Of a stretch of DNA of 48,545 nt, positions 18,806 to 22,747 are shown one piece after another. Under the pieces are notes generated by a model. That model did not search any database, was not told where the DNA came from, and worked only from the letters and a program-made list of their open reading frames with translations. The position numbers were made by a program, and so were the translations under genes. This stretch comes from Gemmatimonadota bacterium (lineage in GTDB: Bacteria > ARS69): the NCBI GenBank assembly GCA_030747075.1, contig JASLLL010000019.1, forward strand, positions 1 to 48,545, given 5' to 3'. Each line of letters starts with the position of its first letter. Positions within the stretch are counted from its first letter, which is position 1.

Positions 18806-18883
18806 TGGCGTCCCCAACGGGATTCGAACCCGTGCTGCCGCCGTGAAAGGGCGGTGTCCTGAACCTGGCTAGACGATGGGGAC
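18806..18883 (-). tRNA. tRNA-Glu (anticodon TTC)
   Basis: The minus strand folds as a cloverleaf: acceptor GTCCCCA/TGGGGAC, anticodon stem CCGCC/GGCGG around loop CTTTCAC (anticodon TTC), T-arm CGGGTTCGAATCCCG, discriminator G and an encoded CCA (18808-18806). The 288 nt between it and the upstream metalloprotease gene show no gene. Confidence 0.95.
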
Positions 18884-19018
18884 GCACACACTCCTTACAG
18901 GAACGCGGGAAGATAGCAGCGCCCCGCCTCTCCTGTCAACGAACGCGCTCCGGCGTATTCAGCCCCCCTGCCCTTCCGATGCGCGGACCCCCGCCCGCTG
19001 CGCCGACGCGCGACCGCC

Positions 19019-19633
19019 CTACAGGCGTCGGTAGATTCCCACCACCTTCCCCAGAATCTCGAACTCGTCCGACGCGCTCACGGGGATGGGGTCGTACGCC
19101 GCGTTGGCCGGTTCCAGCGTGGTCCCCTTGCGGGACCGGCGAAGCCTCTTCACGGTAGCCTCTTCTCCCAGCCGCGCGGCGATGATCTCTCCGCTGGCCG
19201 CTTGGCTCTGAGACCGCACCACCACCAGATCTCCGTCCAGGATTGCGGCCTCTTCCATGGAGTCTCCCTTCACGGTCAGGAGGAAGGTCTCCCCGGTTCC
19301 CAGAAGAGCCTCGTCCATGATGAAGTCCGCCTCTCGGTTCTCCACCGCCAGAATGGGACTTCCCGCCGCGATGCTCCCCACCAGCGGAACCGAACGCGCC
19401 GAGCGAAAATCCGGCCGGTCCAGAATGACAATCGCCCGGGACTTCCCCGGCTCCCGACGAATGACCTCCTTCCGCACCAGTGCGGCGAGATGGTCCTCCA
19501 CTCCCTTGGTCGAGCGAATCCCAAAGCGTTCCCCGATCTCCCGGATCGTCGGGGGGACGCCCTCCATGTCGATGGTCTCCCGGAGGTAGTCCAGGATCTC
19601 GGCCTGTCTGGCCGTCAGCGACTTTCCGCCCAT
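19019..19633 (-). CDS. lexA: LexA repressor
   Basis: SOS-response repressor and self-cleaving peptidase. The 204-residue protein has a winged helix-turn-helix at residues 1-65 (LTARQAEILDYLRE, PTIREIGERFGIRS), the Ala-Gly cleavage site in GSIAAGSPI near residue 92, the catalytic Ser in GDSMEEAAI and the catalytic Lys in ATVKRL. The ATG at 19633 is chosen: GGGAGGA lies about seven bases upstream and the N-terminus then matches the family. The frame is open further upstream but that part is antisense-like leader. The DnaE-like gene ends 25 nt upstream on the same strand, so the two probably form an SOS operon under the palindrome at 20809-20832. Confidence 0.96.
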   Translation of the reverse strand: MGGKSLTARQAEILDYLRETIDMEGVPPTIREIGERFGIRSTKGVEDHLAALVRKEVIRREPGKSRAIVILDRPDFRSARSVPLVGSIAAGSPILAVENREADFIMDEALLGTGETFLLTVKGDSMEEAAILDGDLVVVRSQSQAASGEIIAARLGEEATVKRLRRSRKGTTLEPANAAYDPIPVSASDEFEILGKVVGIYRRL

Positions 19634-19658: not shown

Positions 19659-20786
19659 TCACCACGATCCGCCATTGAGCCCGAGTTCACTACCACCCCT
19701 GCCGGGATTCCTGACGCTGCGATGCGGCCAACCCGCCGTGCCCGCCCCACCGAGAACGCGGGCTCCCCAGCCCACACCGGAAAGAAGAGCCTTCCGAACG
19801 CGGGACACCGGGCCGCCCACGCGGGTTTCCCACTCCACGCGAAAGCGCCGACGACGCTCGATATCATCCAGGCCATTGAGCGCCCCGCTTCTCTCCAGCG
19901 TCCGCAGAGCCGAGCCTTCCAGAGGCAGTGCGCGGGCGCGGGACAGGAAGTTCTTCAGGCTGGTGTACTCCCCCCCCCGCTCTCGATCCAGAACGATCTG
20001 CCCGGCTGCCATGCGCCCGACAAACGGCGCGAGCCCCGGCCGCAGGGCGCGCCCCTCCGGAACCGCCAGAAGCGAACTGTGCAGGACGCACGGTCTTCGC
20101 ACATTCACGCCCCATGACCGGCCCTTCAAGACCCACCGGGAGGCTTCCTCAGGGGAGGCGAACCCCCGGGTTTCCCGCGCCATCCACCAGGCCGGGCGGT
20201 CCAGCTGCCATGCCAGCGCGGCCCGCCAGCGATCTCGCACTTCCAGAGGGCCCTGCGTCGCTTTGCCGGAAGAGGCACGCTCCAGAAGATCCTCCCGACG
20301 CCCCGGGACCACATCCACGCTGGGGCGGGCATCCGGTGACAGCAGCACGGACGCGCGAATCCACGCCTCCGGGTTCGGCCACACGGAACTTCTCTCCAGG
20401 AGGCTCTCCAGAGGCGGCAGCAGCGCGAGGCAGGACTCCTCCACCCTGATCCAAGGGTTCCCCGCATCGGGTGAGAGGTCCGGGTCTGCCTCCAGCCAGG
20501 CCTCGACGCAGCGGGTTCTTCCCGGGGGGACTCGCAGAGTCAGCCCCCCGTGAGGCAGACGGCGCGCGCCTCCTGAAGCCGCCCCGGAGGTGCCCGGCGC
20601 CACCTCCGGGAGCGGCCACGACAGGAGATCCGAACTCCCGGCTTCCAGCGCGAAGCCCGCTCCACGAGCGCGCCTCCCCAGGCGCCCGACCGCGTCCACC
20701 CAGGCTGTTCCGAAGCAGGATTCCCAGCGACACCCGGCCCCCGGCGATGCCCCCGCCGTCTTTTCCGCAACCGCATCCTTCCGCAT
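19659..20786 (-). CDS. Protein resembling the C-terminal part of DNA polymerase III alpha (DnaE-like), without catalytic domains
   Basis: The 375-residue protein is not a full polymerase. Residues about 200-340 resemble the segment of DnaE that links the fingers to the helix-hairpin-helix: RGFASPEEASRWVLKGRSWG, then VRRPCVLHSS, LRPGLAPFVGRMAAGQIV, RERGGEYTSLKNFLSRA, and LRTLERSGALNGL. The PHP domain and the palm with its catalytic aspartates are absent; the first ~190 residues match nothing I know. The ATG at 20786 has a GGGAGGGG ribosome site; an in-frame start at 20840 is less likely because it would cross the candidate operator. Its place directly before lexA recalls ImuABC/DnaE2 mutagenesis cassettes. 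It could be a repurposed accessory protein or a decaying remnant. Confidence 0.65.
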   Translation of the reverse strand: MRKDAVAEKTAGASPGAGCRWESCFGTAWVDAVGRLGRRARGAGFALEAGSSDLLSWPLPEVAPGTSGAASGGARRLPHGGLTLRVPPGRTRCVEAWLEADPDLSPDAGNPWIRVEESCLALLPPLESLLERSSVWPNPEAWIRASVLLSPDARPSVDVVPGRREDLLERASSGKATQGPLEVRDRWRAALAWQLDRPAWWMARETRGFASPEEASRWVLKGRSWGVNVRRPCVLHSSLLAVPEGRALRPGLAPFVGRMAAGQIVLDRERGGEYTSLKNFLSRARALPLEGSALRTLERSGALNGLDDIERRRRFRVEWETRVGGPVSRVRKALLSGVGWGARVLGGAGTAGWPHRSVRNPGRGGSELGLNGGSW

Positions 20787-20808
20787 TCGCCCCTCCCTTT
20801 TCGGCCAC

Positions 20809-20832
20809 ACTACTGAACGCCCGTCTAGTAGT
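20809..20832. promoter_or_regulatory. Imperfect palindrome, candidate LexA operator
   Basis: ACTACTGAAC and GTCTAGTAGT flank a 4-bp centre (GCCC); 8 of 10 positions are symmetric. The core TGAAC-N4-GTCTA loosely resembles the GAAC-N4-GTTC boxes of Gram-positive LexA. It ends 22 nt before the start of the DnaE-like gene that precedes lexA, the position expected for an autoregulated SOS operon. No second copy was found in this window. Confidence 0.45.
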
Positions 20833-20921
20833 CCACCCATTTTTCATTCCCGCCGCTTGACGATTCCCGCCGAGCGGTCCATAGATGCTGAAACCGACGC
20901 AAGGTCCGGTCACAGGGGTGC

Positions 20922-20950: not shown

Positions 20951-21016
20951 GCGCCGGTTCTCTCATGGGTATTCGCGGTTGCGCGTGCCCCCCACATGAT
21001 CCGGAGGCCTCTTCGC

Positions 21017-22747
21017 ATGAAGTGGATGCCAAGAATGGTCCTCCCGACCGCTCTCCTGCTGGTTGTCGCCCAGACGGCCCCGGGAGCGGTCCGGAGGGTT
21101 CCCGACGACCACACCACCATCGCCGCGGCACTGACCGCCTCGGCCTCTGGAGACAGCGTCCTCGTCGCCGAAGGCACCTATGCCGAGCACCTGAATCTCG
21201 TCGACGGGGTGGTGCTTCTGGGCGGGTGGGATCCCGGCTTCACGACGCAGGATCCGTCCGTTCACACGACGAATGTTCATGGCGGCGGAACCGGATCCCC
21301 CTTCACGGCCGATGCCACCATCGGCGCCGCAACGCTCGTCAGCGGCTTCCTCATTACCGGAGGGGGCGGCTTCCCCGGCGCGGGGGTCGTGATCGACGGC
21401 GGGTCTCCGACAATCCGCGGCAACGACATCTACGCGAATGGTTCCCCCGGAATCGCGGGCGGCGTACTGATTCGCTCGGGATCGACGGCGCGCATCGAAG
21501 GCAACCTGATTCGAATCAACACATCCACGAGCAGCGGTGGCGGGCTTCGTGTGGAAAGCTCCTCCCCCAGCATCGTCGGCAACACGATCCGCGGGAATGT
21601 CGCGACCGACGCCGGCGGCGGGATCTACTTCTTCGCTTCCTCCGCCATCTGCAGCACGAATGTGTTCCTCAACAACTCCTCCACGGATGGCGGTGGCGGC
21701 GGCGTCTACTTTCAGAACTGCCCGGACGGCATCACGGTCGCAGACTGCCTGTTCGAAGGGAACACCTCCACCTATGGAGGCGCGGCGCTCCTTCGCGATG
21801 AGTCGACCGTCTCGTTTTCAGACACGCACTTTGAACTCAACACCGCCATCAGCAACGGGGGCGCCATCTGCGCACTCTCGTTCACCACTCTCTCACTGGA
21901 CCGATGCACCTTCGCGAACTGCACCGCCGGTTCGTACGGGGGCGGTGTCTACGCCCGCTTTGCCGAGGTCTCCTTCACGGGAACGGATCCCCTGGCCGCA
22001 CTGCCCGACGCGGGGATGTCCGGCTGTCATGCGGGGACAGAAGGCGGTGGCATCTTCTTCTCCGACTGCGAGGGAGAGATCTCGCGGAGTGCCTTCTCCG
22101 AGTGCACGGCCGTGTCTCGCGGTGGTGGAATCGGCCTCTTCCGCTCGGCGGTGACCATCCTTGGCACGCTCGTCGCAGAGTGCGTGTCGGAAGACGGCGG
22201 CGGAATCGCGGTGACCAGTGACCGGGCCAACAACTCTCCCGTGACCCTAATCCAGCAGTGCACGATCTACGGATGCTCCGCCACCGGTTCACCCAGCAAC
22301 AAGCACGGCGGCGGTGTCGTGCACATCGCCAACAATGGTGAGAAGGCCGCCGAACTGATCGCGACCATTGTCTGCCATACGCGTCAGGGAACCGCGATTC
22401 GGTGCAAGAAGTGGTCCGGGTCGGGCGCGGGAAAGCCGTCTTTCTCCTACACCATCTTCCATCAGGACAGTTCCAACCCCGAGACAACCGCGGTGGGTGG
22501 CAACCAGTGTCTGAGTGCACTCAGTGGACCGCAAAACCACGACGGAGATGATCCCCTTCTCTGCGGCCTGCCGTCCCCGGTGGACTTCAGCCTTCAGGAT
22601 TGCAGCCCCGCCGTAATTGCCGGATCCACCGACCCCACAGGCGAGTGGCCGTTCATGGGTGTCGCAAAGACCACCTGCGCCTGCGAGACGGTCCAGTCCT
22701 CACTGGAGTCCATCTCCTGGGGCCGGGTCAAGTCGCTCTACCGGTAG
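21017..22747 (+). CDS. Secreted right-handed parallel beta-helix protein
   Basis: The 576-residue protein has a signal peptide (residues 1-24, ending APGA), then many Gly-rich turns of the polymorphic right-handed beta-helix type: SGGGLRVESSSPSIVGNTI, AGGGIYFFASS, GGGGVYFQNC, YGGAALLRDES, EGGGIFFSDC and others at a spacing of about 25 residues. Several turns contain Cys. Such folds bind or cut polysaccharides or form adhesins; no lyase signature was identified. The C-terminus is not the FlgD-like module of its neighbours but a short tail, SLESISWGRVKSLYR. The ATG at 21017 is chosen over 20996 because GGAGG lies nine bases upstream. It is transcribed divergently from the lexA operon. Confidence 0.88.
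   Translation: MKWMPRMVLPTALLLVVAQTAPGAVRRVPDDHTTIAAALTASASGDSVLVAEGTYAEHLNLVDGVVLLGGWDPGFTTQDPSVHTTNVHGGGTGSPFTADATIGAATLVSGFLITGGGGFPGAGVVIDGGSPTIRGNDIYANGSPGIAGGVLIRSGSTARIEGNLIRINTSTSSGGGLRVESSSPSIVGNTIRGNVATDAGGGIYFFASSAICSTNVFLNNSSTDGGGGGVYFQNCPDGITVADCLFEGNTSTYGGAALLRDESTVSFSDTHFELNTAISNGGAICALSFTTLSLDRCTFANCTAGSYGGGVYARFAEVSFTGTDPLAALPDAGMSGCHAGTEGGGIFFSDCEGEISRSAFSECTAVSRGGGIGLFRSAVTILGTLVAECVSEDGGGIAVTSDRANNSPVTLIQQCTIYGCSATGSPSNKHGGGVVHIANNGEKAAELIATIVCHTRQGTAIRCKKWSGSGAGKPSFSYTIFHQDSSNPETTAVGGNQCLSALSGPQNHDGDDPLLCGLPSPVDFSLQDCSPAVIAGSTDPTGEWPFMGVAKTTCACETVQSSLESISWGRVKSLYR

Follow-up and report, generated by a model that had tools for sequence, protein, structure and literature searches.

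We describe a 375-aa protein (mini-DnaE), encoded directly before lexA in a 48,545-nucleotide stretch of Gemmatimonadota DNA (the whole of which is called the window here), that is homologous to the alpha subunit of DNA polymerase III (PolIII alpha), lacks its catalytic residues, is conserved in four genera, and lies behind an operator common to translesion operons. The host clade comprises little-known, uncultured bacteria, and for its phylum we know of no previously described LexA-type operator. As to function, we regard as evenly poised the proposal that mini-DnaE is a dead, shortened PolIII alpha derivative, repressed by LexA and induced in the SOS response, that would serve as a nonenzymatic translesion accessory or competitor. 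With more reserve, we suggest that it might represent a dead C-family member kept as a dedicated SOS factor, i.e., an adaptor or decoy in the polymerase swap, parallel to ImuB.

The comparisons below draw on a sample of five genomes of the phylum, namely, the window's own (G000) and four relatives (G001 to G004). Within the window, the locus is composed of the following elements.

Positions 19659 to 20786, minus strand: mini-DnaE gene (PolIII-alpha-derived protein), an open reading frame with relatives in G001, G003, and G004.
Positions 19019 to 19633, minus strand: lexA, 204 aa (TIGR00498, 4.1e-65; LexA_DNA_bind, 9.9e-24; Peptidase_S24, 1.5e-33).
Positions 20809 to 20832: 24-bp imperfect palindrome ACTACTGAACGCCCGTCTAGTAGT, a LexA-type operator conserved in relatives and present before lexA, imuA-imuB, and dinB operons.
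Positions 20807 to 20835, minus strand: putative promoter composed of TGGACT (20830 to 20835), a 17-bp spacer filled by the operator, and TAGTGT (20807 to 20812), with the same geometry in relatives.
Positions 20996 to 22747, plus strand: divergent gene for a right-handed beta-helix protein (named by eye), a synteny marker outside the lexA unit that is the same neighbor in G001, G002, and G003.
Positions 18806 to 18883: tRNA-Glu gene, 3' of lexA.

On the minus strand, the palindrome, mini-dnaE, and lexA follow one another in this order, and the coordinates, protein length, and spacing given in the initial annotation are correct: 22 nt separate the palindrome from the mini-dnaE ATG (at 20786), and 25 nt separate the mini-dnaE stop codon (19659 to 19661) from lexA. 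A Shine-Dalgarno sequence, GGGAGGGG, is located between the palindrome and the ATG. The predicted LexA of the window is canonical, a consensus scan recovered no internal lexA promoter, and the two genes probably form one transcription unit, with mini-dnaE first. On the far side of lexA, between it and the tRNA-Glu gene, lies a strong sigma-70-like promoter without a LexA box (TTGACA-18-TATCTT; window positions 18910 to 18939, minus strand).

The resemblance to DnaE that had been noticed at the outset is real, as profile searches centered on the following region of the protein indicate.

Positions 19854 to 20111, minus strand: tandem helix-hairpin-helix (HhH) block of PolIII alpha, residues 226 to 311 (Pfam HHH_6).

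HHH_6 is the sole Pfam domain of the window protein (1.1e-9; 38.8 bits versus a cutoff of 25.6) and also exceeds the cutoff in G003 (32.1 bits) and G001 (34.2 bits), i.e., in three of the four members of the family. NCBIfam searches recovered PolIII alpha models only, weakly and over the same region. The HhH block matched DnaE in hhalign with an E value of about 1e-9, and a profile built from three members recovered Taq PolIII alpha from the PDB (2hpi; 1.4e-8). A tree of this block has very long branches and skewed composition and does not separate descent from DnaE1 from descent from DnaE2. PolIII alpha uses its HhH pair to hold the duplex behind the active site. In the G004 protein, about 28 residues of the block are missing, which argues against DNA binding through the HhH pair being universal among the members.

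Family profiles gave no match to residues 1 to 200. Taken with the modest E value of the palm match reported below, this would suit a chimera in which a lineage-specific N-terminal domain was joined to a borrowed PolIII HhH pair to yield a DNA-binding SOS factor, its likeness to the palm being fortuitous. We consider such an origin unlikely, given what the N-terminal half has in common with DnaE in sequence and in predicted structure.

Positions 20610 to 20702, minus strand: palm-entry remnant, residues 29 to 59, aligned to DnaE '...DFV.WA+..GIPV.pGRGSAAGS' (the best hhalign match of the N-terminal half).
Positions 20436 to 20543, minus strand: strand-helix-strand, residues 82 to 117, without D-x-D, at the expected place of the PDxDxD-helix-strand of DnaE (AF2 models and motif scan; placed by eye).

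The family alignment of the N-terminal half has its best match in DnaE1 at the palm entry ('DFI.AK..GIPVGPGRGSAAGS'), at a position collinear with the HhH block, and the features preserved in the remnant are a helix, GIPV, and GS. The remnant is short and its E value weak (0.011 to 0.025 in one comparison), but no column shuffle reached its score, either in 150 trials with three members against DnaE1 or in 200 trials with four members against each of two target alignments (0 of 350 versus DnaE1 when the two sets are pooled); against DnaE2, a weaker test with two sequences only, 3 of 150 shuffles did so. Used singly in blastp, the G003 and G004 proteins gave several matches on the same DnaE palm motif and others that reach into the end of the fingers. 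A model of the full-length window protein was too poor for use (pLDDT, 54) and retrieved no significant fold match. A trimmed-core model with the G003 protein as the lead sequence (pLDDT, 72.7; pTM, 0.71) retrieved PolIII alpha or PolC structures as all 17 of its best matches in the PDB (best E value, 6.2e-4; probability, 1.00), over spans of 140 to 210 columns. Throughout the four members, a conserved LRV strand replaces the PDxDxD strand.

The catalytic apparatus is missing from the family. A script scan detected no D-x-D in three members, nor does the aligned G001 sequence contain one. Mini-DnaE has no match to the PF07733 palm, to the Y-family IMS domain (which is recognized in the ImuB of G003, at 41.3 bits), or to a PHP domain, for which there is also no room between the operator and the palm remnant; no OB fold is matched after the HhH block of the window protein, and none of the four members has a clamp-binding motif. 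Because the DnaE2 of the window's own genome, searched as a control against the same library, displayed PHP, palm, finger, HHH_6, and OB matches, these absences do not reflect a shortcoming of the library. The initial statement that PHP and palm are lacking holds for the PHP domain and for an intact palm; what it missed is the collinear palm-entry remnant, which is detectable without the catalytic aspartate. We conclude that the protein is a PolIII alpha derivative stripped of the PHP domain, the PDxDxD aspartates, the thumb, the clamp motif, and the OB fold and that the palm-entry remnant and the end of the fingers survive, together with the tandem HhH in most members. An N-terminal RYG..W prompted a search for a RecA-NT motif, which was unsupported (47 of 100 shuffles were equally good). 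With no clamp-binding motif and no RecA-NT motif found, the sequence points to no interaction partner.

Four of the five phylum genomes, each from a different genus, carry mini-dnaE at the same short length: G000, the genome of the window; G003 and G004, where a direct search found it; and G001, where a profile did (4.8e-44). In G003, lexA follows it directly, as in the window; in G004, the contig ends 3' of mini-dnaE, within an element that is directly 5' of lexA in both G002 and G003. The gene is gone from G002, which keeps the beta-helix gene, the palindrome, and lexA. As G000 branches outside G003, G004, and G002 in a tree of DnaE pieces (with modest support), loss in G002 seems likelier than late gain, and by virtue of this loss mini-dnaE is dispensable. 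Outside the phylum, searches of 381 genomes yielded no full-length match; the matches listed comprise the HhH or the end of the fingers only and nearly all fall within full-length DnaE frames. A scan of GTDB recovered no relatives beyond two MAGs that were already known, and viral contigs contained none. The gene is best read as clade specific and fast evolving.

Between members, identity at third codon positions is at chance level (0.34 to 0.41 versus 0.35 to 0.36 expected), whereas positions 1 and 2 match well above expectation (0.49 to 0.62 versus 0.26 to 0.32 expected); thus, the protein has been kept while silent sites became saturated. This pattern and the presence of relatives in the same phylum led us to reject a chance open reading frame. 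The constraint is weaker than that on lexA (pN/pS of about 0.7 versus 0.37), and this value, the long branches, the HhH deletion in G004, and the loss from G002 with the box and lexA retained are all compatible with a decaying remnant, in which a former dnaE copy downstream of the lexA operator is undergoing stepwise loss and the frame is preserved mainly as the leader of the lexA transcript. We nevertheless judge such decay, raised initially as a possible fossil, to be quite unlikely. The frames remain open over 335 to 384 codons at the same place in four genera, and 45 columns are invariant over members that share 32 to 41% identity; the retention of a short, constrained gene in place, which had been put forward as a check, is what four of the five phylum genomes display. 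A full-length dnaE, including the dnaE2 that had been envisaged there, occupies this position in none of the phylum relatives.

The palindrome pairs 18 of its 24 positions around the core CTAGACGGGCGTTCAG (20813 to 20828, minus strand). It is kept before mini-dnaE in G001, G003, and G004 and before lexA in G002, the equivalent cores in the relatives being CTAGACGCCTGTCTAG, CTAGACGCGCGTCTAG, CTAGACGTGCGTTTAG (before lexA in G002), and CTAGACATTCGTCCGG (G001). In the window, it occupies the spacer between the -35 and -10 elements, the position expected of a repressor site; the promoters of the relatives read TAGACA-17-TATATT (G003), TGGACA-17-TATATT (G002), and TTGACA-17-TATCCT (imuA of G003). 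Sites with no more than one mismatch to CTAGACGNNCGTCTAG number five in the five genomes, and they precede mini-dnaE (G003 and G004), lexA (G002), imuA-imuB (G004), and a radical SAM gene (G004). A palindrome box also precedes the imuA-imuB-dnaE2 cassette of G003, and G000 has boxes of the form CCAGACANNTGTCTGG at two loci, upstream of dinB-dnaE2 and upstream of a DUF6504-like gene with a dinB downstream. The initial annotation had suggested looking for the palindrome upstream of other SOS genes: it is present upstream of dnaE2, in the form of the dinB-dnaE2 operon, and recA, with no LexA-type box upstream, was rejected as a member of the regulon. Since the box is shared with lexA and translesion operons and sits in the promoter spacer, the computational case is good for the palindrome being the clade's LexA operator and for coregulation of mini-dnaE with the translesion polymerases; this would define CTAGACG-NN-CGTCTAG as a LexA-type operator for the phylum. 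The original picture of a catalysis-free DnaE relative in a unit with lexA is upheld, with the palindrome as a LexA-type operator and the unit itself probable; because of this operator and this probable unit, mini-dnaE is probably SOS related.

Several further elements were observed in the same genomes. On contig C10 of the window's own genome (L027:4606-8963), a dinB gene behind a LexA-type box is overlapped by a full-length dnaE2 that bears the active site, and inspection by eye places a RecA-NT-like motif, AVRRRFGQGALVVG, at the end of the DinB. On contig C21 of this genome (L073:1-1525), a LexA-type box precedes the small DUF6504-like gene and another dinB. The radical SAM gene behind a LexA-type box in G004 (L040:1501-2566) belongs to the PA0069 family (NF033668, 1.5e-113) and is a possible unrecognized SOS gene. 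In G003, a second box-like site, CTAGACAAATGTCCAC (L003:2221-2236), lies between mini-dnaE and lexA and is perhaps a second lexA promoter. Lastly, the single-copy element CACCTTTCCnGCnTCnCAnCnTGnTTGCCCACAnTCCGAGGCC (L003:2149-2191, L032:1388-1430, and L025:4173-4215, all outside the window) precedes lexA in G002 and G003 and follows mini-dnaE in G004. It is far better conserved than the neighboring gene, its differences partly resemble codon third positions, and it has no Rfam match; it is possibly a lexA leader element or a short peptide.

We propose that LexA would repress the mini-dnaE-lexA unit at the operator within the promoter spacer and that the level of mini-DnaE would rise upon DNA damage. 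As it is unable to polymerize, mini-DnaE most likely acts by binding: without chemistry of its own, it may serve as a scaffold or a competitor at replication forks that have met damage, where it could help the coregulated DinB and DnaE2 to replace the replicative DnaE1 in the manner of ImuB. A free palm-fingers-HhH piece could occupy either the primer-template or a replisome partner; the former could be held because the HhH pair holds DNA in PolIII alpha, and the fact that G004 has lost part of the HhH argues for protein contact being no less important than DNA contact. It is improbable that the protein acts instead on LexA or RecA, by tuning cleavage or filaments, and not on polymerases: although mini-dnaE directly precedes lexA in the window and G003 and has the conserved pre-lexA element after it in G004, its PolIII alpha ancestry points to replication partners, it has no RecA-NT motif, and G002 keeps lexA without it. 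Should the role at the fork proposed for mini-DnaE be correct, it would be the first known catalytically dead C-family polymerase member retained as an SOS factor, would mean that a former replicase can take on the role of a damage response accessory, and would make a small, tractable protein available for studies of replicase displacement by translesion polymerases.

Among known systems, ImuB, a dead Y-family protein that serves as an adaptor, appears to be the nearest functional analog of mini-DnaE, and to our knowledge, dead polymerases as SOS helpers come solely from the Y family. Mini-DnaE shares with the ImuA-ImuB-DnaE2 mutasome a LexA-type operator and the presence of a dead polymerase homolog among SOS genes, and the same clade has the cassette with the same box; it differs in that the dead protein belongs to the C family and is paired with lexA. 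The likeness to lexA-imuA-imuB-dnaE2 cassettes drawn initially is apt as a functional analogy and does not extend to the identity of the gene. The imuA-imuB-dnaE2 cassette of G003 lies on a contig other than that of mini-dnaE, imuA-imuB is present in G004, the window's own genome has no ImuB relative, and neither imuA nor imuB neighbors mini-dnaE at its locus; as these genomes have the cassette or dinB-dnaE2 at a separate place, we rejected the view that mini-dnaE is the cassette's degraded dnaE2. Its co-occurrence with ImuA-ImuB(-DnaE2) in G003 and G004 and with DinB-DnaE2 in G000 indicates that it is not tied to one type of mutasome. Operons in which lexA is accompanied by a second gene exist, e.g., lexA-dinB and lexA-sulA-like operons, and the present one resembles them in cotranscribing an SOS gene with lexA, with the difference that mini-dnaE stands ahead of lexA and derives from a polymerase gene.

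With DnaE/PolIII alpha proteins (DnaE1, DnaE2, DnaE3, and PolC), mini-DnaE shares the tandem HhH, the end of the fingers, the palm-entry remnant, and the PDB fold matches, but it has one-third of their length and none of the PHP domain, catalytic aspartate motif, thumb, clamp motif, and OB fold. Sections of two surveys of the C family (PMC3919608 and PMC12926913) describe four groups, truncated C termini, and inactive PHP domains, and no homolog with a dead polymerase core is reported in those sections. The DnaE2B-PolY(-RecA) modules, as outlined in part of the latter survey (PMC12926913), have a counterpart in the dinB-dnaE2 operon of G000, with its LexA-type box and RecA-NT-like DinB end (by eye); their DnaE2 keeps PDLDIDL and all domains, whereas mini-DnaE comes in addition to DnaE1 and DnaE2, as the third protein derived from the C family. 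Because the sections of these surveys (PMC3919608 and PMC12926913) report no dead core and ImuB is nearest, we place mini-DnaE beside the ImuB-type dead SOS polymerases: what is new here is a dead SOS polymerase homolog from another polymerase family, the C family, paired with lexA.
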